In this document: positions 20,651 to 29,350 of the stretch, one piece after another
How positions within the stretch are numbered: the stretch's first letter is position 1
Layout of the letters: every line of letters starts with the position of its first letter
Source: Bradyrhizobium sp. SK17
GTDB lineage: Bacteria > Pseudomonadota > Alphaproteobacteria > Rhizobiales > Xanthobacteraceae
Direction: 5' to 3'
DNA: 64,000 nt
Assembly: GCF_002831585.1 (NCBI RefSeq)
Contig: NZ_CP025113.1
Coordinates: forward strand, 6,649,001-6,713,000
The notes under the pieces: model-generated
The model's database searches: none
What the model saw: the letters and a program-made list of their open reading frames with translations, nothing else
What the model was told of the DNA's origin: nothing
Made by a program: the position numbers and the translations under genes

Positions 20651-21253
20651 ATGAAATACCTTGCTTTTGCAACAGTCGTGATGGTGCTTGCCGGCGCAAA
20701 TGCTGGCCAGGCCGGCGCGGAAACGATCACGAGTTCCTACACGTCGACGGCGCCGAAGGCCTGCCGCATGATCGGCAAGCCCAATGCGGAGGACGGCAGC
20801 AGCACGCGCCTCTGCCCGGGAAAGTCCGGCCTCGTGGTGCTGATCAACGAGGGCGACTTGCGTGAAGTGGTCTCGGTGGGTCGAGATCACGCCGCGGCAG
20901 CCAAGGAACCGGCGGCGCAGGCCTGGTTCGGCCCGTTCAACTCGACCGGCGATACGCTCGAATGGCGCGCCGCCGGCAGCAAGCCGTTCGCGATCATCCA
21001 GCGCTGGCAGATCGCCGACAACAGCGAGCAGAACAAGCGCGGCGGCCCGGTCTCACGCGCGATGCTCGCGGTGACGCGGCTGCCGCCGGGCGAAGTCTGC
21101 CATGTCGCCTATGTCGACGTCGCGGCCAACCCCAACGCCAACGAGCTGGCGCGGCAGGCCGCCGACGATTTCGCGCGTGACTTCAGATGCGGCATCGACC
21201 AGGTCAAGACCATCGGCCAGAGCGGCCGGACCACATCGCTCACCAAGCGCTGA
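20651..21253 (+). CDS. Secreted protein of unknown function, 200 aa
   Basis: A signal peptide (MKYLAFATVVMVLAGANAGQ, cleavage near AGAE) leads into a periplasmic body of about 175 residues. Four cysteines (KACRMIG, TRLCPGK, EVCHVAY, FRCGIDQ) could form two disulfides; the KVACR/GEVCHVAYVD pattern resembles uncharacterised Bradyrhizobium exported proteins. The sequence SEQNKRGGPVSRAMLAVTRL suggests a flexible loop. No domain can be named. It is probably transcribed alone, with its own promoter in the 165-bp gap upstream. Confidence 0.75.
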   Translation: MKYLAFATVVMVLAGANAGQAGAETITSSYTSTAPKACRMIGKPNAEDGSSTRLCPGKSGLVVLINEGDLREVVSVGRDHAAAAKEPAAQAWFGPFNSTGDTLEWRAAGSKPFAIIQRWQIADNSEQNKRGGPVSRAMLAVTRLPPGEVCHVAYVDVAANPNANELARQAADDFARDFRCGIDQVKTIGQSGRTTSLTKR

Positions 21254-21282: not shown

Positions 21283-22005
21283 TCACGGCCGCGGCTGTTT
21301 GCCCACAGACAGGCGCAGCATGGCGCTCAACAGCATGTCCGCTGACGTGCCCGCGGGGGCGCGATCCAGGATCGTCTTGAGACGCCCGTCGAGCAGCAGC
21401 GTGGTGAAGCCATGCACCACCGACCAGGCCGATGCGATCGCGGCGGCCTGGTCCAGCGTCAGCTGCTCCTTGGAAATCTCCTCATGCCGGCTGGCGCCGA
21501 CGCCGCGGGTCAACCCGGCGAACGACGCTTCCGACGCCTCGTGCAGCGACGGCCGCGAATGATCGAGCCGCTCGCTGCGGAACATCAGCCCGTACATGCC
21601 GGGATGCGCCTGCGCATAGGCGACGTAGGCCTTGGCGCTCGCCGCGCCCTTCTCGGGCGGCGTCGCCGCCGAGGCGCCGGCGGCGTTCATCGCCTGGCCG
21701 AATTGCCGGAAACCGATCGCCGCGAGTTCGCTGAGCAGGCCGGTGAGATCGCCGAAATGATGCGTCGGCGCGGCGTGCGACACGCCGGCCTCGCGCGCCA
21801 CCGCGCGCAAGGTCAACCCCGGCAGCCCGTCGCGTTCGAGCACGCGCTCGGCCGCCTTCAGCAACGCCTCATGCAGATCGCCATGATGATACGGTGTATC
21901 GCTGGCCCGGCGACGCTGCACCGGACGGCCCGCTTCCGCCCGCGCCCGGCGGGTCCGGGCCGGCGCCGCGCGCGCCGCCTTGTTTTCCTTGGATAATCTT
22001 GCCAT
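21283..22005 (-). CDS. TetR-family repressor, 240 aa
   Basis: After a basic extension (ARTRRARAEAGRPVQRRRAS, about 40 residues) comes the TetR HTH: YHHGDLHEALLKAAERVLER, GLTLRAVAREAGVSHAAPTH, HFGDLTGLL. The C-terminal ligand domain (to 240) contains SEERLDHS-like FRSERLDHSRPSLHEASEAS and a WSVVHGFTTLLLDG helix seen in WHG-domain members (PF13305). The ATG at 22005 is favoured because the frame upstream runs through the operator region. It is divergent from the carotenoid oxygenase gene and its likely operators are the four palindromes at 22025, 22079, 23727 and 23780. Confidence 0.88.
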   Translation of the reverse strand: MARLSKENKAARAAPARTRRARAEAGRPVQRRRASDTPYHHGDLHEALLKAAERVLERDGLPGLTLRAVAREAGVSHAAPTHHFGDLTGLLSELAAIGFRQFGQAMNAAGASAATPPEKGAASAKAYVAYAQAHPGMYGLMFRSERLDHSRPSLHEASEASFAGLTRGVGASRHEEISKEQLTLDQAAAIASAWSVVHGFTTLLLDGRLKTILDRAPAGTSADMLLSAMLRLSVGKQPRP

Positions 22006-22024
22006 GCGACCGTTATAGGTCGCA

Positions 22025-22043
22025 ATTTTTACACTGTAAAGAT
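22025..22043. promoter_or_regulatory. TetR operator O1
   Basis: ATTTTTACACTGTAAAGAT is a 19-bp palindrome with one mismatch to the perfect site O2. It lies just upstream of the -35 hexamer of the oxygenase promoter and also overlaps the likely tetR promoter. Confidence 0.7.
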
Positions 22044-22048
22044 TTTGC

Positions 22049-22077
22049 TTGACGATCGACTGCGCGATCCCTACTGA
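22049..22077 (+). promoter_or_regulatory. Promoter of the carotenoid oxygenase gene
   Basis: TTGACG (22049-22054) and TACTGA (22072-22077) are 17 bases apart, a sigma-70 type spacing with a strong -35. O1 and O2 lie on either side. The same cassette is repeated at 23751-23779. Confidence 0.6.
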
Positions 22078-22078
22078 T

Positions 22079-22097
22079 ATCTTTACGATGTAAAGAT
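22079..22097. promoter_or_regulatory. TetR operator O2
   Basis: ATCTTTACGATGTAAAGAT has perfect 8-base arms around a 3-base centre, centred 54 bp from O1. It directly follows the -10 region, where a bound repressor would block transcription of the oxygenase gene. Confidence 0.78.
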
Positions 22098-22118
22098 CAT
22101 AATTCAGGGAGATCCGGG

Positions 22119-23522
22119 ATGCTCGACCAGGTGACATCGAATACGGCGCGCTCCAATCTGGCGCCGATCCCATTTGAAGCCGACGCACCGTTCCTGAAGA
22201 TCACGGGCGAATTGCCGCGCGAGCTGAACGGCACGCTGTACCGCAACGGCCCCAATCCGCAGTTCGACGTGCCGGGCGCGCACTGGTTCGTCGGTGACGG
22301 CATGCTGCACGCCTTCCATCTCGAGAACGGCCGCGCCAGCTACCGCAACCGCTGGGTCCGCACCGCGAAATGGCAGGCCGAGCACGACGCCGGCCGCGCG
22401 CTGTTCGGCGGCTTCGGCCGCAAGCTACCGGACGCGCCCGCCGACATCACGGTCGATGGCTGCGTCGCCAACACCAACATCATCTTCCACGGCGGCAAGC
22501 TGCTCGCGCTGGTCGAGAGCCATCTGCCGACCGAAATCGAACCCGGCACGCTCAATCGCCTCGGCTATTGCGACTACAAGGGCGCGATCTCCGGCCCGTT
22601 CTCCGCGCATCCCAAGATCGATCCGGTCACCGGCGAGATGGTGTTCTTCGGCTACAACGCCGCCGGTCCGCTGACGCCAGCGCTATCGTACGGCTCCGTG
22701 AGTTCGTCCGGCGAGGTCAAGCGTTTCGAACGCTTCGAGGCGCCCTATGCCAGCATGGTGCACGACTTCATCGTCACCGAGAACCATGTCCTGTTCCCGA
22801 TCCTGCCGATCACCGGCAGCATGCAACGCGCGATGCGCGGCCAGGCACCCTACGCCTGGGAGCCGGAGAAAGGCGCCTATGTCGGCGTCATGAAGCGCAG
22901 CGGCTCGTCCAAGGACATCGTCTGGTTCCGCGCCGAGACCTGCTACGTTTTCCACGTCATGAACGCGTGGGAGGAAGGCAACCGCATCATCGCCGACGTG
23001 ATGCAGTTCGAAGAGGCGCCGCTGTTCAACCATCCCGACGGCTCGCCGACCGATCCGCAGAAGAACCGGGCGCGCTATTGCCGCTGGACCTTCGACCTCG
23101 CCGGCAACACCGACCGCTTCACGCAAACCTATCTCGACGACCTCACCGGCGAATTTCCCCGCGTCGACGATCGCCGCGCCGGCCTTGCGAGCAATCACGG
23201 CTGGTACGCCTGCGCCAATCCCAACCTGCCGATGTTCGGCGCGCTGTCGGGCATCGTGCATGTCGACGGCCGTGGCAAACGGCTCGGTCACTACCTGTTG
23301 CCCGCCGGTGATACGATCTCGGAGCCCGTCTTCGTCGAGCGCAGTGCCGATGCCGCGGAAGGCGACGGCTGGCTGCTCGCCGTGGTCTGGCGCGCCCGCG
23401 AGAACCGCAGCGACCTCGCCGTGTTCAATGCGCAGGACGTCGAGGCCGGCCCGACCGCGCTGGTCCATCTCGGCCACCGCGTGCCTGATGGATTCCATGG
23501 CAATTGGGTCGGGGCGGAGTAG
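22119..23522 (+). CDS. Carotenoid oxygenase family (RPE65/lignostilbene dioxygenase-like), 467 aa
   Basis: This is a seven-bladed Fe(II) oxygenase. The four iron-binding histidines are present: His164 (SAHPKID), His215 (MVHDFIVT), His279 (YVFHVMNAWEE) and His460 (DGFHGNWV). LNGTLYRNGPNPQF and GDGMLHAFHLENG are typical family stretches. Bacterial members cleave carotenoids or stilbene-type lignin fragments across a C=C bond. There is no signal peptide. AGGGAGATCCGGG gives a fair RBS. It is under the divergent TetR and probably monocistronic, the next gene having its own copy of the promoter cassette. The substrate is not known; aromatic stilbenes are as likely as carotenoids. Confidence 0.9.
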   Translation: MLDQVTSNTARSNLAPIPFEADAPFLKITGELPRELNGTLYRNGPNPQFDVPGAHWFVGDGMLHAFHLENGRASYRNRWVRTAKWQAEHDAGRALFGGFGRKLPDAPADITVDGCVANTNIIFHGGKLLALVESHLPTEIEPGTLNRLGYCDYKGAISGPFSAHPKIDPVTGEMVFFGYNAAGPLTPALSYGSVSSSGEVKRFERFEAPYASMVHDFIVTENHVLFPILPITGSMQRAMRGQAPYAWEPEKGAYVGVMKRSGSSKDIVWFRAETCYVFHVMNAWEEGNRIIADVMQFEEAPLFNHPDGSPTDPQKNRARYCRWTFDLAGNTDRFTQTYLDDLTGEFPRVDDRRAGLASNHGWYACANPNLPMFGALSGIVHVDGRGKRLGHYLLPAGDTISEPVFVERSADAAEGDGWLLAVVWRARENRSDLAVFNAQDVEAGPTALVHLGHRVPDGFHGNWVGAE

Positions 23523-23561
23523 CTGCCAATCGTCCCAAAGGCGAAGCGCCAAATCTCTCCA

Positions 23562-23650
23562 CTCGTCATGCCCGGCCTCGTGCCGGGCATCCACGTCTTT
23601 GCCGCCAGCCGAAGAAAGACCCGGGATGGCCGGGACAGCCCGACCACAGA
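23562..23650. repeat. Degenerate intergenic repeat with hairpin
   Basis: A CGTCATGCCCGGCCTCGTGC start with perfect 9-base arms ATGCCCGGC at 23568-23576 and the complement at 23582-23590 is followed by ATCCACGTCTTTGCCG, then a GGGATGGCCGGGACA stretch. This is the GCCCGG class of repeats found between genes in Bradyrhizobium. It fills most of the gap between the oxygenase gene and its neighbour. Confidence 0.6.
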
Positions 23651-23726
23651 GAGCGGCAAGAAGGAAGCATCTTCAAGCTTGGTACATCGACCTTGGAAAC
23701 ACTCACTTTTTCAGTGACACCTCACG

Positions 23727-23745
23727 ATTTTGACACTGTAAAGAT
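23727..23745. promoter_or_regulatory. TetR operator O3
   Basis: ATTTTGACACTGTAAAGAT differs from O1 at a single base. It lies just before the second TTGACG promoter. Confidence 0.7.
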
Positions 23746-23750
23746 TTCGC

Positions 23751-23779
23751 TTGACGCTCTCCTTTTCCGCCCCTAGGGT
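23751..23779 (+). promoter_or_regulatory. Promoter of the membrane-protein operon
   Basis: TTGACG (23751-23756) and TAGGGT (23774-23779) with a 17-base spacer are framed by O3 and O4, exactly mirroring the oxygenase promoter. Confidence 0.65.
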
Positions 23780-23798
23780 ATCTTTACGGTGTAAAGAT
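23780..23798. promoter_or_regulatory. TetR operator O4
   Basis: ATCTTTACGGTGTAAAGAT has the same arms as O2 and differs only in the central triplet. It directly follows the -10, 19 bp before the start codon of the membrane-protein gene. Confidence 0.78.
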
Positions 23799-23816
23799 CA
23801 GCCTTCGAGGCTTGCA

Positions 23817-24392
23817 ATGACGATCTTCCTGATCCTCGCTCCCTACGGCGCCTTCGCCACGCTGATGCTGATGACCTCGGCGACCGTGAGCCTGCTCTGT
23901 GCTGCCCTGATCTGCCTTGCCGTCATCGCCTTCGATGTCGCGCGCGGCCGCAGCATCAACACCCTCGGCATCGGTTCGGTGATCGTGTTCACCGCGATTG
24001 GCATCTATCTGACCTTCGTCGACGCAACGCCGAGCAGCATCGCAGTCAAGATCGCCGTCGATGCCGGCATCCTCCTCGTGTCATTCGGTTCGATGCTGAT
24101 CGGTCATCCCTTCACCCTGCAATATGCCGTCGAGCAGTTCGATGCCGAGACCGCGAAACTGCCCGGCTTCATCCACGCCAACTATTTGATCACCGGAGCC
24201 TGGGCGGCCGCGACGCTGTTGATGATGATCGGCAACATCGCGGTGCTCTACATGCCGACCTTGCCGCTATGGACCGGCCTCCTCGTCGCCTTCGCCGCGC
24301 GCAACGCCGCGGTCGGCTTCACCCGCTGGTACCCGCACTATCGCGCGGCCAAGTACGGCACGCCGCCCGCCAGCGCGCTGCCGTCGCACTGA
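23817..24392 (+). CDS. Integral membrane protein, 191 aa
   Basis: Five to six hydrophobic segments are readable: about residues 3-22, 23-40, 50-68, 78-98, 125-145 and 150-168. The sequence MTIFLILAPYGAFATLMLMT starts after a GAGGCTTGCA RBS. Between helices are acidic and basic loops (YAVEQFDAETAKLPGF), but no catalytic motif can be named. It heads a three-gene operon (with the YciB-like and small beta proteins) driven by a copy of the oxygenase promoter cassette, so it is expected to be induced with it. A role in uptake, export or membrane response to a hydrophobic ligand is possible but not shown. Confidence 0.75.
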   Translation: MTIFLILAPYGAFATLMLMTSATVSLLCAALICLAVIAFDVARGRSINTLGIGSVIVFTAIGIYLTFVDATPSSIAVKIAVDAGILLVSFGSMLIGHPFTLQYAVEQFDAETAKLPGFIHANYLITGAWAAATLLMMIGNIAVLYMPTLPLWTGLLVAFAARNAAVGFTRWYPHYRAAKYGTPPASALPSH

Positions 24393-24449
24393 CGCAGCCG
24401 TTAGCCATCGCAGAACAATCACGCGCCCGAGGAAACGGAAACCACGACG

Positions 24450-25004
24450 ATGAAGAGCGTATTTGCCAAGCTTGCGAGCGACTTCCTCTCCACCATCGTG
24501 TTCCTGGTGGTCTATCTCGCGACCGACAACGTGCTGATCGCCACCGGCGTTGCGATCGTCGGCGCGATCGCGCAGGTGATCTATGCGCGGGTGAAGGGAC
24601 AGGAACTCGGCTATATGACCTGGGCGAGCCTCGGGCTCGTGATCGTGCTGGGTGGCGCGACGCTCCTCACCAACGATCCGCGTTTCGTGCTGGCGAAGCC
24701 CGCGATCGGCCATATCGCGATCGGTGCGATCATGCTCAAGCGCGGCTGGATGCTGCGCTATCTGCCGCCGATCGTGACCCAGACCATTCCGGAATACGCC
24801 ACCCTCGCCGGCTATGCCTGGGCCGGGTTGATGTTCATCCTCGCCGCGGGCACGATTGCGATCGCGGCGACCGGCGACATGAAGCTGTGGGCGTTCTACG
24901 TGTCGGTGGTGCTGCTCGGCGCCAAGATCGCCGCCTTCGCGATCCAGTACGTCGCCTTCCGCTTCCTGATCGGCAACCGGCTGCGCGCCGCCGCCCGCGC
25001 CTGA
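24450..25004 (+). CDS. YciB/IspZ-like inner-membrane protein, 184 aa
   Basis: The length, the early DFLSTIVFLVVYLATDN, the second helix with VGAIAQVIYARVKGQELGYM and the third with GGATLLTNDPRFVLAKPAIG match the YciB/IspZ (septation protein A) family of five to six transmembrane segments. E. coli YciB interacts with cell elongation and division proteins. In this organism the ordinary yciB normally lies near ftsY, so this could be a paralogue adapted to the TetR-controlled unit. It is 57 bp after the membrane-protein gene and 81 bp before the small beta protein. Confidence 0.75.
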   Translation: MKSVFAKLASDFLSTIVFLVVYLATDNVLIATGVAIVGAIAQVIYARVKGQELGYMTWASLGLVIVLGGATLLTNDPRFVLAKPAIGHIAIGAIMLKRGWMLRYLPPIVTQTIPEYATLAGYAWAGLMFILAAGTIAIAATGDMKLWAFYVSVVLLGAKIAAFAIQYVAFRFLIGNRLRAAARA

Positions 25005-25085
25005 TCGCCGCAGCGGCGAACTAGGCGCGCGCGGCAAGATGGGCTATACCCGCGCACGCATTCATCTCGAGGGGAGACATCTATT

Positions 25086-25382
25086 ATGGCGGTGGACGGA
25101 AACTGGAATCTGACGATGACGACGCCGATGGGCGAGCGCAAGGCGACGCTGTCGCTTTCGAGCTCGGGCGGCACGCTCACCGGCACGCAAGGCGCCGAAG
25201 GCAATTCCACCGAGATATTCGACGGCACCGTGAATGGCGACAGCGTCGCCTGGAAGGTTTCCATCACCAACCCGATGCCGCTGACGCTGGAATTCAGCGG
25301 CAAGGTTTCGGGCGACGGCATCTCCGGCGAGATGGGCATCGGCCCGATGGGCAGCTTCCCCTTCACCGGCACCCGCGCCTGA
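25086..25382 (+). CDS. Small beta-rich protein of unknown function, 98 aa
   Basis: The sequence MAVDGNWNLTMTTPMGERKA is followed by alternating Gly/Thr/Ser-rich strands (LSLSSSGGTLTGTQGAEGNS, LTLEFSGKVSGDGISGEMGI), the pattern of a small all-beta barrel. No cysteine, no signal peptide, no catalytic motif. AGGGGAGACATCT is a good RBS. It is the last gene before a strong terminator, so it closes the TetR-controlled operon. Proteins of this design may bind lipids or other hydrophobic ligands, but this is inference from the fold only. Confidence 0.7.
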   Translation: MAVDGNWNLTMTTPMGERKATLSLSSSGGTLTGTQGAEGNSTEIFDGTVNGDSVAWKVSITNPMPLTLEFSGKVSGDGISGEMGIGPMGSFPFTGTRA

Positions 25383-25420
25383 CACACCGACCAGGCGGAT
25401 CGGATTATTCCGCATCGAAC

Positions 25421-25459
25421 ATTCAGGCCGCGCCGATGACCGGCGCGGCCTGAATTTTT
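25421..25459 (+). terminator. Strong rho-independent terminator
   Basis: A perfect 15-base stem (ATTCAGGCCGCGCCG and its complement) with a 5-base loop ATGAC is followed by TTTT. It closes the TetR-controlled operon. Confidence 0.95.
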
Positions 25460-25575: not shown

Positions 25576-26463
25576 ATGCCGACCTCAATCACACGCCGTA
25601 TTGTGCTTGCGGCATCGGCCATGGCCGTTCCGGCGCTGCGCGTATCCGCTGCACGAGCCGAGCCTGGGCAGCACAGCATCGAACATCGCTTGAAGGACGT
25701 CGAGGTCCAAAGCCGTGGCCGGCTGGGTGTCGCCCTGCTGGACACCGCGACCGGCAAGCTCATCGGCAACCGCATCGACCAGCGGTTTGCCATGTGCAGC
25801 ACCTTCAAGGCGCTCGCCGTGGCCCTTGTGCTGGCGCGGGTCGACCGCGGCGAGGAACAACTGGACCGCCGCGTCGTCTTCTCCGAACGCGATCTGGTAC
25901 CACCATCGGTCGCGACCCAACCTCACGTTGGTCCCGGAGGGATGACGGTCGCAGAGCTCTGCGAGGCGGCCGTGACGGTGAGCGACAGCACCGCCGCCAA
26001 TCTGCTGCTGGCGAGCTTCGGCGGCCCCGCCGCCCTGACGGCTTACCTGCGCTCGCTGGGCGATCCGGTCACGCGTCTCGATCGGGTCGAACTGGATCTA
26101 AACATCGTCAAGCCGGGCGAGCAGCACGACACCACCTCGCCGGCCGCCATGGCGCGGACACTGCAACGGCTGCTTCTCGGAGATGCGCTGTCGGAGCCCT
26201 CGCGCGCACGGCTGACCGGCTGGATGGCCGGCGCGAAGGACGCCGCAACGACCCGGCTGCGGGCCGGACTGCCGCAGGGATGGCGGATCGCCAACAAGCC
26301 CGGCACCTGGAAGGGCATCGCAACCAACGATGTCGGCGTGATCTGGCCGCCGGGCCGCGCCCCGATCGTGGTCGCAGCCTATCTCGCGGACGCGCCGACG
26401 CCTGTCGCGACGCAGGAAGCCATTCTTGCGGAGATCGGCCGGATCGTAGCCGAAGCCAGCTAG
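25576..26463 (+). CDS. Class A beta-lactamase with atypical motifs, 295 aa
   Basis: A Tat-like signal (TRRIVLAASAMAVPALRVSA) is followed by a class A fold. The nucleophile motif CSTFK holds Ser75 (classic Ser70) and Lys78. The omega-loop Glu is Glu172 in VELDLN. The usual SDN is SDS here (136-138), and the usual KTG is KPG (241-243), in IANKPGTWKG; both changes sit in the active site. The enzyme opens beta-lactam rings in the periplasm. Which spectrum these substitutions allow cannot be read off. The ATG at 25576 suits family length; the upstream frame back to 25474 has no RBS. No ampR-like regulator adjoins it. Confidence 0.88.
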   Translation: MPTSITRRIVLAASAMAVPALRVSAARAEPGQHSIEHRLKDVEVQSRGRLGVALLDTATGKLIGNRIDQRFAMCSTFKALAVALVLARVDRGEEQLDRRVVFSERDLVPPSVATQPHVGPGGMTVAELCEAAVTVSDSTAANLLLASFGGPAALTAYLRSLGDPVTRLDRVELDLNIVKPGEQHDTTSPAAMARTLQRLLLGDALSEPSRARLTGWMAGAKDAATTRLRAGLPQGWRIANKPGTWKGIATNDVGVIWPPGRAPIVVAAYLADAPTPVATQEAILAEIGRIVAEAS

Positions 26464-28796: not shown

Positions 28797-29032
28797 GGGG
28801 TGCTCTTTGGGCTGCACGTCGGTTCGAAAGGCCGGTGCCAGCCGCGGGGCCGCCCGGCAATGTAGAGCCGTTCTAAGCCTTTTTCGGACAAAGGAAAGGG
28901 AAGCCGGCGGCCTTCCAGCCATGCGCTGCGGCGGCAATCCCCGTGCTAATGTTTCATCCTGCCGTAATCCCGGGTTGCCACTACGCCACGCAATCCATGA
29001 AAGCGACCAAGGGGTTCGCAAAGGGGGCCATC

Positions 29033-29350
29033 ATGAAATCAGGGCTTTTCGCCTCATTCGCAGTGCTGGCCTTGTTGATCGCGCTCCCGGCCAGCACTGA
29101 CGCGGCTCGGCTCGGCCGAGCGTGCGGCGGCATCGCCGGCCTGCAATGCAGCCGTGGCGGCCAGTTCTGCCAGTTCAAGCCCGGGCAATGCGGCCGTGCC
29201 GACCAGACCGGCAGCTGCGCGTTCCGGCCGACGATCTGCAACAAGATCTACAAGCCGGTCTGCGGCTGCGACGGCAAGACCTACGGCAATGACTGCGAGC
29301 GCCGGGCCGCCGGCGCCTCCAAGGCGCAGGACGGCAAGTGCCCATCCTGA
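29033..29350 (+). CDS. Secreted Kazal-type protease inhibitor-like protein, 105 aa
   Basis: A signal peptide (MKSGLFASFAVLALLIALPA, cleavage near TDA) leads to a Cys-rich body. The first segment (CGGIAGLQCSRGGQFCQFK) holds three cysteines and a pair of others follow; the last about 45 residues form a Kazal domain: CNKIYKPVCGCDGKTYGNDC then C near the end, matching the C-x(n)-VCGxDGxTYxNxC pattern. Kazal domains inhibit serine proteases. The AAAGGGGGCC RBS sits before ATG 29033. An exported inhibitor could protect against host or rival proteases. Reactive-site residue follows the second Cys and cannot be named with confidence. Confidence 0.85.
   Translation: MKSGLFASFAVLALLIALPASTDAARLGRACGGIAGLQCSRGGQFCQFKPGQCGRADQTGSCAFRPTICNKIYKPVCGCDGKTYGNDCERRAAGASKAQDGKCPS

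Follow-up and report, generated by a model that had tools for sequence, protein, structure and literature searches.

TetR local autorepressors of the Tn10 type use two operators, tetO1 and tetO2. We analyzed a locus of Bradyrhizobium sp. SK17 (genome size, 8.29 Mb), located in a stretch of 64,000 nucleotides referred to hereafter as the window, in which a tetR gene lies divergently from the gene of an RPE65/carotenoid-oxygenase-family enzyme, which is followed by an operon for small membrane proteins. As in systems of the Tn10 kind, the repressor gene is divergent, palindromic operators lie over divergent promoters, and each control region has two operators; unlike in those systems, the operator-promoter-operator unit is repeated at two to three promoters, some of them unlinked in certain relatives, with a spacing of mostly 52–56 bp. 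Every part of the locus is a member, or a near neighbor, of a known family. The oxygenase resembles the lignostilbene dioxygenases and NOV1 and NOV2 in being an RPE65-family enzyme with four His residues, but carries Phe and Val at their Tyr and Lys positions and falls under all three NCBIfam equivalog cut-offs. One membrane protein exceeds the PF04279 cut-off, as do the YciB/IspZ septation proteins, but is only a distant paralogue of them. A further protein is comparable to the calycin-type barrels (streptavidin, bradavidin2, FABP/CRABP and designed barrels), although it has only 98 aa and a profile search recovered no avidin. In some relatives, the C-terminal part of a fusion protein resembles carotenoid isomerase/CrtI-type flavoenzymes, but is fused to a domain like that of the first membrane protein of the operon (TM1) and scores far under the equivalog cut-offs. 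In the literature searched, with most subscription journals lying outside the search, we found no account of this combination, of the repeated unit or of its extension to unlinked fusion genes.

We propose, with a probability of about 0.6, that a single TetR-family repressor controls this regulon through the repeated operator-promoter-operator unit, with a hydrophobic conjugated alkene as its most probable ligand. The features concerned are as follows (positions in the window).

21283–22005, minus strand: tetR, 240 aa, with TetR_N and TetR_C_33 domains; putative repressor, likely palindrome binder and autorepressor
22012–22040, minus strand: predicted tetR promoter; –35 TTTACA (22035–22040) inside operator 1, 17-nt spacer, –10 TATAAC (22012–22017)
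22025–22043, unstranded: operator 1 of the oxygenase promoter; 19-bp palindrome with 1 mismatch, overlapping the tetR –35
22049–22077, plus strand: predicted oxygenase promoter; –35 TTGACG (22049–22054), 17-nt spacer, weak –10 TACTGA (22072–22077)
22079–22097, unstranded: operator 2 of the oxygenase promoter; perfect palindrome (0 mismatches), at the expected transcription start
22119–23522, plus strand: RPE65/carotenoid-oxygenase-family enzyme, 467 aa (PF03055, 449 bits)
23727–23745, unstranded: operator 1 of the membrane-operon promoter; 19-bp palindrome with 2 mismatches
23751–23779, plus strand: predicted membrane-operon promoter; –35 TTGACG (23751–23756), –10 TAGGGT (23774–23779)
23780–23798, unstranded: operator 2 of the membrane-operon promoter; perfect palindrome (0 mismatches)
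23817–24392, plus strand: TM1, 191 aa; predicted all-helical, presumably a membrane protein, weakly VC0807-like
24450–25004, plus strand: YciB/IspA-like membrane protein, 184 aa, above the PF04279 cut-off
25086–25382, plus strand: barrel gene, 98 aa; predicted eight-stranded beta-barrel of calycin type
25421–25455, plus strand: intrinsic terminator-like site; 15-pair stem with 11 GC, followed by T's

The four 19-bp palindromes form two pairs, each of which brackets one CTTGACG promoter, with start-to-start distances of 54 and 53 bp and gaps of 35 and 34 bp. A sequence-only reading of this DNA had placed two palindromes around the TTGACG before the oxygenase gene at 22119 and the same arrangement before the gene starting at 23817, and both were recovered at the positions listed above; its figure of 53–54 bp between palindromes is correct as a start-to-start distance and incorrect as a gap. 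The number of palindromes with at most two mismatches in the window, 4, compares with 0.01 expected by chance, and none of 100 shuffled sequences reached it. Moreover, a 38-nt direct repeat (22020–22057 and 23722–23759, 87% identity) spans operator 1 and the –35 box of both promoters, and the description of the arrangement as a duplicated promoter-operator cassette is therefore fair. A scan with the sigma-70 consensus flagged neither CTTGACG promoter because their –10 boxes are weak; the CTTGAC and the TA of the –10 box are nonetheless conserved in relatives. Since operator 1 covers the tetR –35 box and the predicted start lies approximately at the ATG, tetR may well be autorepressed, and its mRNA may well be leaderless.

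Scanning of the whole genome with a 16-base core of the motif gave 22 matches, of which the 7 with 0–1 mismatch were all located at this locus. The other 15 had two mismatches (one overlaps a site in the window) and were no commoner than the matches of a reversed control (31 rows). A wider regulon in this genome was considered and rejected, as the two-mismatch matches did not exceed the control and no further paired site was present in the places examined. The most motif-like of these matches (C1:2311113) stands alone, with no partner site, ahead of a gene resembling by eye that of a nitronate monooxygenase, and two other genomic places that were retrieved lacked a paired site.

The operators are conserved far beyond this strain. 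The exact 19-mer palindrome was found in 181 of 195 sampled genomes of the genus, mostly in one or two copies, whereas the reversed control gave none; this is a genus of nodules and soil, yet no paper on the regulon was found in the literature searched. Two sites (at most three mismatches) precede the oxygenase gene in all 80 named relatives (78 with a spacing of 53 or 54 bp and one each with 55 and 42 bp), and two sites with a spacing of 52–54 bp precede TM1 in 68 of them. Among the remaining 12, seven have no TM1 match (some of their contigs end there), three have TM1 with no site, and two have a single site. On the oxygenase side (78 relatives), the mean information content was 1.89–1.95 bits per column for operator 1 and 1.88–1.96 for operator 2; on the TM1 side (66 relatives), the values were 1.91–1.94 and 1.79–1.85, respectively. 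The flanks and spacer reached only 0.33–1.2 bits per column, with CTTGAC standing out within the spacer. The TATA of the tetR –10 box was at least 90% conserved in the 29 relatives with a spacing of 53 bp and looser (60–90% for three letters) in the 49 relatives with a spacing of 54 bp. Across 158 loci (1.89 Mb), which are not independent, having mostly been chosen for the cassette or the fusion and including many near relatives and some genomes twice, we found 229 pairs at 51–56 bp; the control motifs, one reversed and two scrambled, gave no pair. All but two of these pairs (227/229) precede an oxygenase/tetR, TM1, YciB-like, fusion or M20 gene; the two left over are a pair close to the end of a contig and a pair facing tetR at a locus in which the oxygenase was not detected. 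The genome-wide palindrome search and the synteny in relatives, both of which had been proposed as checks, came out in favor of the sequence-only reading, and comparison among genomes supports its view that one TetR would serve two promoters built from one unit and would couple the oxygenase to the membrane operon.

Pfam agreed with the earlier naming of the TetR protein (PF00440, 36 bits against a cut-off of 24; PF13305, 52.6 against 26.8), of the RPE65-family oxygenase and of the PF04279 (YciB/IspA) protein. As is usual for the TetR family, a palindromic operator is present in the divergent intergenic region. The binding of the palindromes by this TetR is a prediction from sequence, and we considered the possibility that an unlinked regulator binds them and that the adjoining TetR is a bystander. 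To that idea, which is favored by a TetR orthologue lacking a good site in genome G147, we give very little credence: all 18 usable genomes with a TetR orthologue (at least 64% identity) had paired sites, adjoining tetR in 17 of them, whereas none of six genomes with only distant TetR matches (at most 46% identity, or none) had any site at two or fewer mismatches (P = 7e-6, calculated ignoring relatedness). The 25 genomes compared were not a random sample; they were mainly chosen because either the exact palindrome or the oxygenase was missing, with three of other genera and the window's own genome added. One of them (G260), in which tetR is cut by a contig edge, was set aside, and G147 is not among the 25 and would count against the association. 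In addition, operator 1 sits on the tetR –35 box, and the only sites with 0–1 mismatch in the genome adjoin the tetR locus.

The oxygenase was found in 178 of the 195 genomes of the genus (E 1e-150); the closest named orthologues listed, from B. mercantei, B. embrapense and B. macuxiense, are 96% identical, although this list may omit records very near the window's own. It has the RPE65 domain and all four iron-binding His residues (164, 215, 279 and 460) of the RPE65/carotenoid cleavage oxygenase superfamily, and these are kept in 94–96 of 98 aligned sequences (12 of 110 candidates were dropped for an internal stop or a short frame, and a few odd cells probably reflect mis-framed rows). Marasco and Schmidt-Dannert (2008) reportedly tested Bradyrhizobium members of the oxygenase family. 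Among solved structures, the closest to it in sequence are those of lignostilbene dioxygenases and of NOV1 (5J53), with E values of 5e-96 to 1.4e-92, and its best NCBIfam model is that of lignostilbene dioxygenase. These matches favor a version of the regulon in which the ligand and substrate would be a plant stilbenoid or a lignin-derived phenylpropene, and the oxygenase a lignostilbene/isoeugenol-type dioxygenase. However, the score of 417 bits is well under the cut-off of 800, and the enzyme carries Phe 99 and Val 132 in place of the Tyr and Lys of the four solved lignostilbene-type sequences compared. In the 98-row alignment, Phe occupies the Tyr position in 94 sequences, and the Lys position is occupied by Glu in 90 and by Val in 4. 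We assume these to be the positions of Y136 and K169 of MapADO. The Tyr/Lys pair (Y136, K169) is described as important in MapADO (PMC12308385). Of the residues that hold the 4-hydroxyl group of the substrate in 4-hydroxystilbene dioxygenases, our oxygenase has neither the Tyr nor the Lys. Because the pair is replaced, the reading of the enzyme as a stilbene dioxygenase with a stilbene ligand is weakened. Two other equivalogs also scored below their cut-offs, namely another stilbene model (342 against 650) and the 8΄-apo-carotenoid 13,14-cleaving dioxygenase model NF052295 (314 against 675), and the enzyme thus represents an RPE65-family group claimed by no NCBIfam equivalog. We consider the stilbenoid version quite unlikely; it also fits poorly with the fact that in some relatives the regulon includes a flavoenzyme nearest to carotenoid isomerase.

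This flavoenzyme is part of a fusion protein of approximately 720 aa, in which a TM1-like domain is joined to a CrtISO/CrtI-like domain and whose gene was found in 11 of the 195 genomes. An operator pair (at most three mismatches, 52–56 bp) directly precedes the gene in 9 of the 11, and no TetR relative was found in the retrieved flanks of these nine; the two genes lacking a pair are at loci L176, where the 5΄ side is cut by a contig end, and L177. The best NCBIfam match of the fusion is carotenoid isomerase (142 bits against a cut-off of 587). We also considered whether the fusion replaces the oxygenase, since 4 of the 11 genomes with the fusion seemed to have no oxygenase; in G341, however, the oxygenase is split between two contigs, with one piece at the end of each, and the corrected proportion (3/11 compared with 13/184; Fisher P = 0.05) was not convincing. 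Separately, far outside the genus, another family of the class (G411) has a TM1-like/CrtISO-like fusion that is 39% identical (L280:4945–7182), with no cassette genes in the retrieved stretch; the TetR regulon may have captured a fusion that already existed.

The membrane operon encodes three small proteins, of which TM1 and the 98-aa protein had no Pfam match at E 0.001. TM1 scored 33 bits with the NCBIfam VC0807 model NF041646, under the cut-off of 65, and is 26–34% identical to the N-termini of the fusions of relatives; the predicted local distance difference test (pLDDT) score of its AlphaFold2 model was 78.8. The YciB-like protein carries the PF04279 domain (62.2 bits against 28.7). Septation, which had been suggested by the likeness to YciB, is not kept as the default function, because the genome has a much better scoring YciB/IspA protein elsewhere: the best of its three PF04279-family members, at C1:1516361, scored 201.7 bits, compared with 61.2. 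The cassette protein also falls under the septation protein A/IspZ equivalog cut-offs (66.7 against 180 and 55.2 against 165.2), and sequence comparison marks it as a distant paralogue of the septation protein of the genome. Extra YciB-like genes, one of them short, lie directly 3΄ of the oxygenase gene at L304:6672–7193, L307:5387–5905, L309:2312–2854 and L102:6957–7280. The 98-aa protein is predicted to form an up-and-down barrel of the eight- to ten-stranded type of the calycin superfamily; its identity to avidin across the fold alignment was 20%, and a profile search at E 1 found no avidin. The terminator with a 15-bp stem that had been predicted behind the operon was also present, with 15 pairs.

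Sequence comparison establishes the paired operators, their conservation, which genes belong to the regulon and the co-occurrence with TetR, whereas DNA binding, repression, the class of ligand and what the membrane proteins and the barrel do are inferred. The regulon would most likely work as follows. A repressor dimer on each 19-bp palindrome, with the two palindromes approximately five helical turns apart, would clamp the promoter between them; by bracketing the –35 and –10 boxes of the oxygenase gene and membrane operon and covering the –35 box of tetR, the dimers would hold down all three transcripts. Binding of the ligand would release the repressor, and tetR, the oxygenase gene and the membrane operon would rise together. 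Since the same operator pair stands before genes of two different families that elsewhere act on polyenes (RPE65 and CrtISO-like), together with the membrane module and the calycin-type barrel, the simplest assumption is that the ligand is a hydrophobic conjugated alkene; it would most likely be a plant or microbial isoprenoid of apocarotenoid-like character. The induced non-heme-iron oxygenase would oxidatively cleave a double bond of such an alkene, the two small integral membrane proteins (VC0807/YciB-like) would deal with the compound within the membrane or protect the membrane, and the barrel may carry the ligand or the product. The earlier suggestion of a stilbene or apocarotenoid ligand thus probably survives in its second half, widened to other hydrophobic alkenes, and 4-hydroxystilbene appears less likely than a hydrophobic polyene. 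A more specific picture, which we put forward tentatively and regard as unlikely in its full form, is that bradyrhizobia and their relatives possess a system devoted to sensing and clearing an apocarotenoid-type signal made by plants, or some other polyene isoprenoid. It would comprise the TetR receptor, an enzyme oxidatively cleaving a new class of substrate, a calycin carrier of a new kind and, in certain lineages, a carotenoid-isomerase-like flavoenzyme fused to the membrane module. The TetR, together with its well-defined paired 19-bp operator, would be a ready-made biosensor for finding the probably hydrophobic ligand, and a single inducer screen could open up the roles of the three small proteins.

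Several observations weigh against the regulon as we propose it. The oxygenase is usual in the regulon but dispensable: cassettes without it keep their operator pairs (G030, G267, G299, G304, G319, G335, G222, G261, G331 and G064, the last having tetR, an operator pair, TM1 and the barrel apart from the oxygenase), and it is broken in the otherwise recognizable cassettes of G240 and G245. In these two, the oxygenase pieces lie in different frames (L302:5042–6367 and L135:2123–3503, respectively), and tetR, the pairs, TM1 and the YciB-like gene are nearly full length. In some other genera of the family (L105, L107 and L114), the oxygenase sits elsewhere without operators. Regarding the TetR, that of G147, a genome from outside the genus, is 65% identical, yet the site beside it has four mismatches; G133 has a single site; and G323 has lost the pair on the tetR side (one good site and a three-mismatch site 170 bp away) and keeps a pair only at the fusion gene. 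The fusion is rare (11/195), and a search of the window's genome did not recover it at the E value used; in G295 and G017 a pair precedes an M20-family amidohydrolase gene that has no obvious link to polyenes. The fold search with TM1 gave no solved relative at E 0.001, and because the fold neighbors of the barrel include designed barrels and a cyclic-dinucleotide receptor, its fold fixes no ligand. At the two M20 loci, the pair lies between two M20-like genes, near a GMC-oxidoreductase-like gene (L116:5582–5653 in G295 and L130:5306–5377 in G017); we named the GMC gene and the additional M20 copies by eye.

The persistence of the membrane genes, the barrel and the pairs in the ten oxygenase-less cassettes named above, and in G240 with its broken oxygenase, would also fit a membrane-stress response, in which the TetR would respond to membrane-active hydrophobic compounds in general and the YciB/VC0807-like proteins would be the chief effectors, with the oxygenase in an accessory role, perhaps acting on the cell's own lipids or isoprenoids; some of these cassettes keep only TM1 or only the YciB-like gene. 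We regard this explanation as unlikely, although it deserves to be taken seriously, since the retention of the oxygenase in 178 of 195 genomes is hard to square with a mere accessory, and locus L109 of G147 retains tetR, the oxygenase and the barrel with no match to TM1 or the YciB-like protein. The recurring core of the proposed repressor-controlled regulon consists of tetR with an operator pair, one or both of TM1 and the YciB-like gene, and the barrel gene, with members missing here and there (the barrel at L102 and L115, the YciB-like gene at L091, and both TM1 and the YciB-like gene at L109). In G083 and G123, a different oxygenase, 39% identical and with a divergent TetR-like gene of its own, adjoins tetR, two sites, TM1 and the genes of the YciB-like protein and the barrel. 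In a class-wide sample of 337 genomes (the window's own included), the barrel was found in 12 and TM1 in 11. Of the places outside the window's family, 10 of the 14 with a barrel and 8 of the 10 with TM1 were retrieved, and tblastn with the window's proteins revealed no cassette at those retrieved; relatives of TM1 there lie beside fatty-acid-hydroxylase-family genes (L279 and L281) or among genes of fatty-acid-synthesis type (L282), and one is the CrtISO-type fusion of L280.

Around the locus, a gene for a bacterial SET-domain protein (PF00856; 19808–20485, minus strand) has a relative adjoining the cassette in 72 of the 80 named loci, and a 200-aa protein (20651–21253, plus strand), with no Pfam match and a start that by eye resembles a signal peptide, is present in 64 of the 80. 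A scan of the window gave 5 terminator-like sites compared with 2.6 expected. Right behind the terminator of the operon lies a class A beta-lactamase gene (25576–26463, plus strand), which scored 295.7 bits with the NCBIfam class A model (cut-off 200) and under the cut-off for all other 24 families shown. Finally, an open reading frame at 28943–29350 (plus strand) has a Kazal-like cysteine pattern, CGCDGKTYGNDC, that was spotted by eye in its translation.

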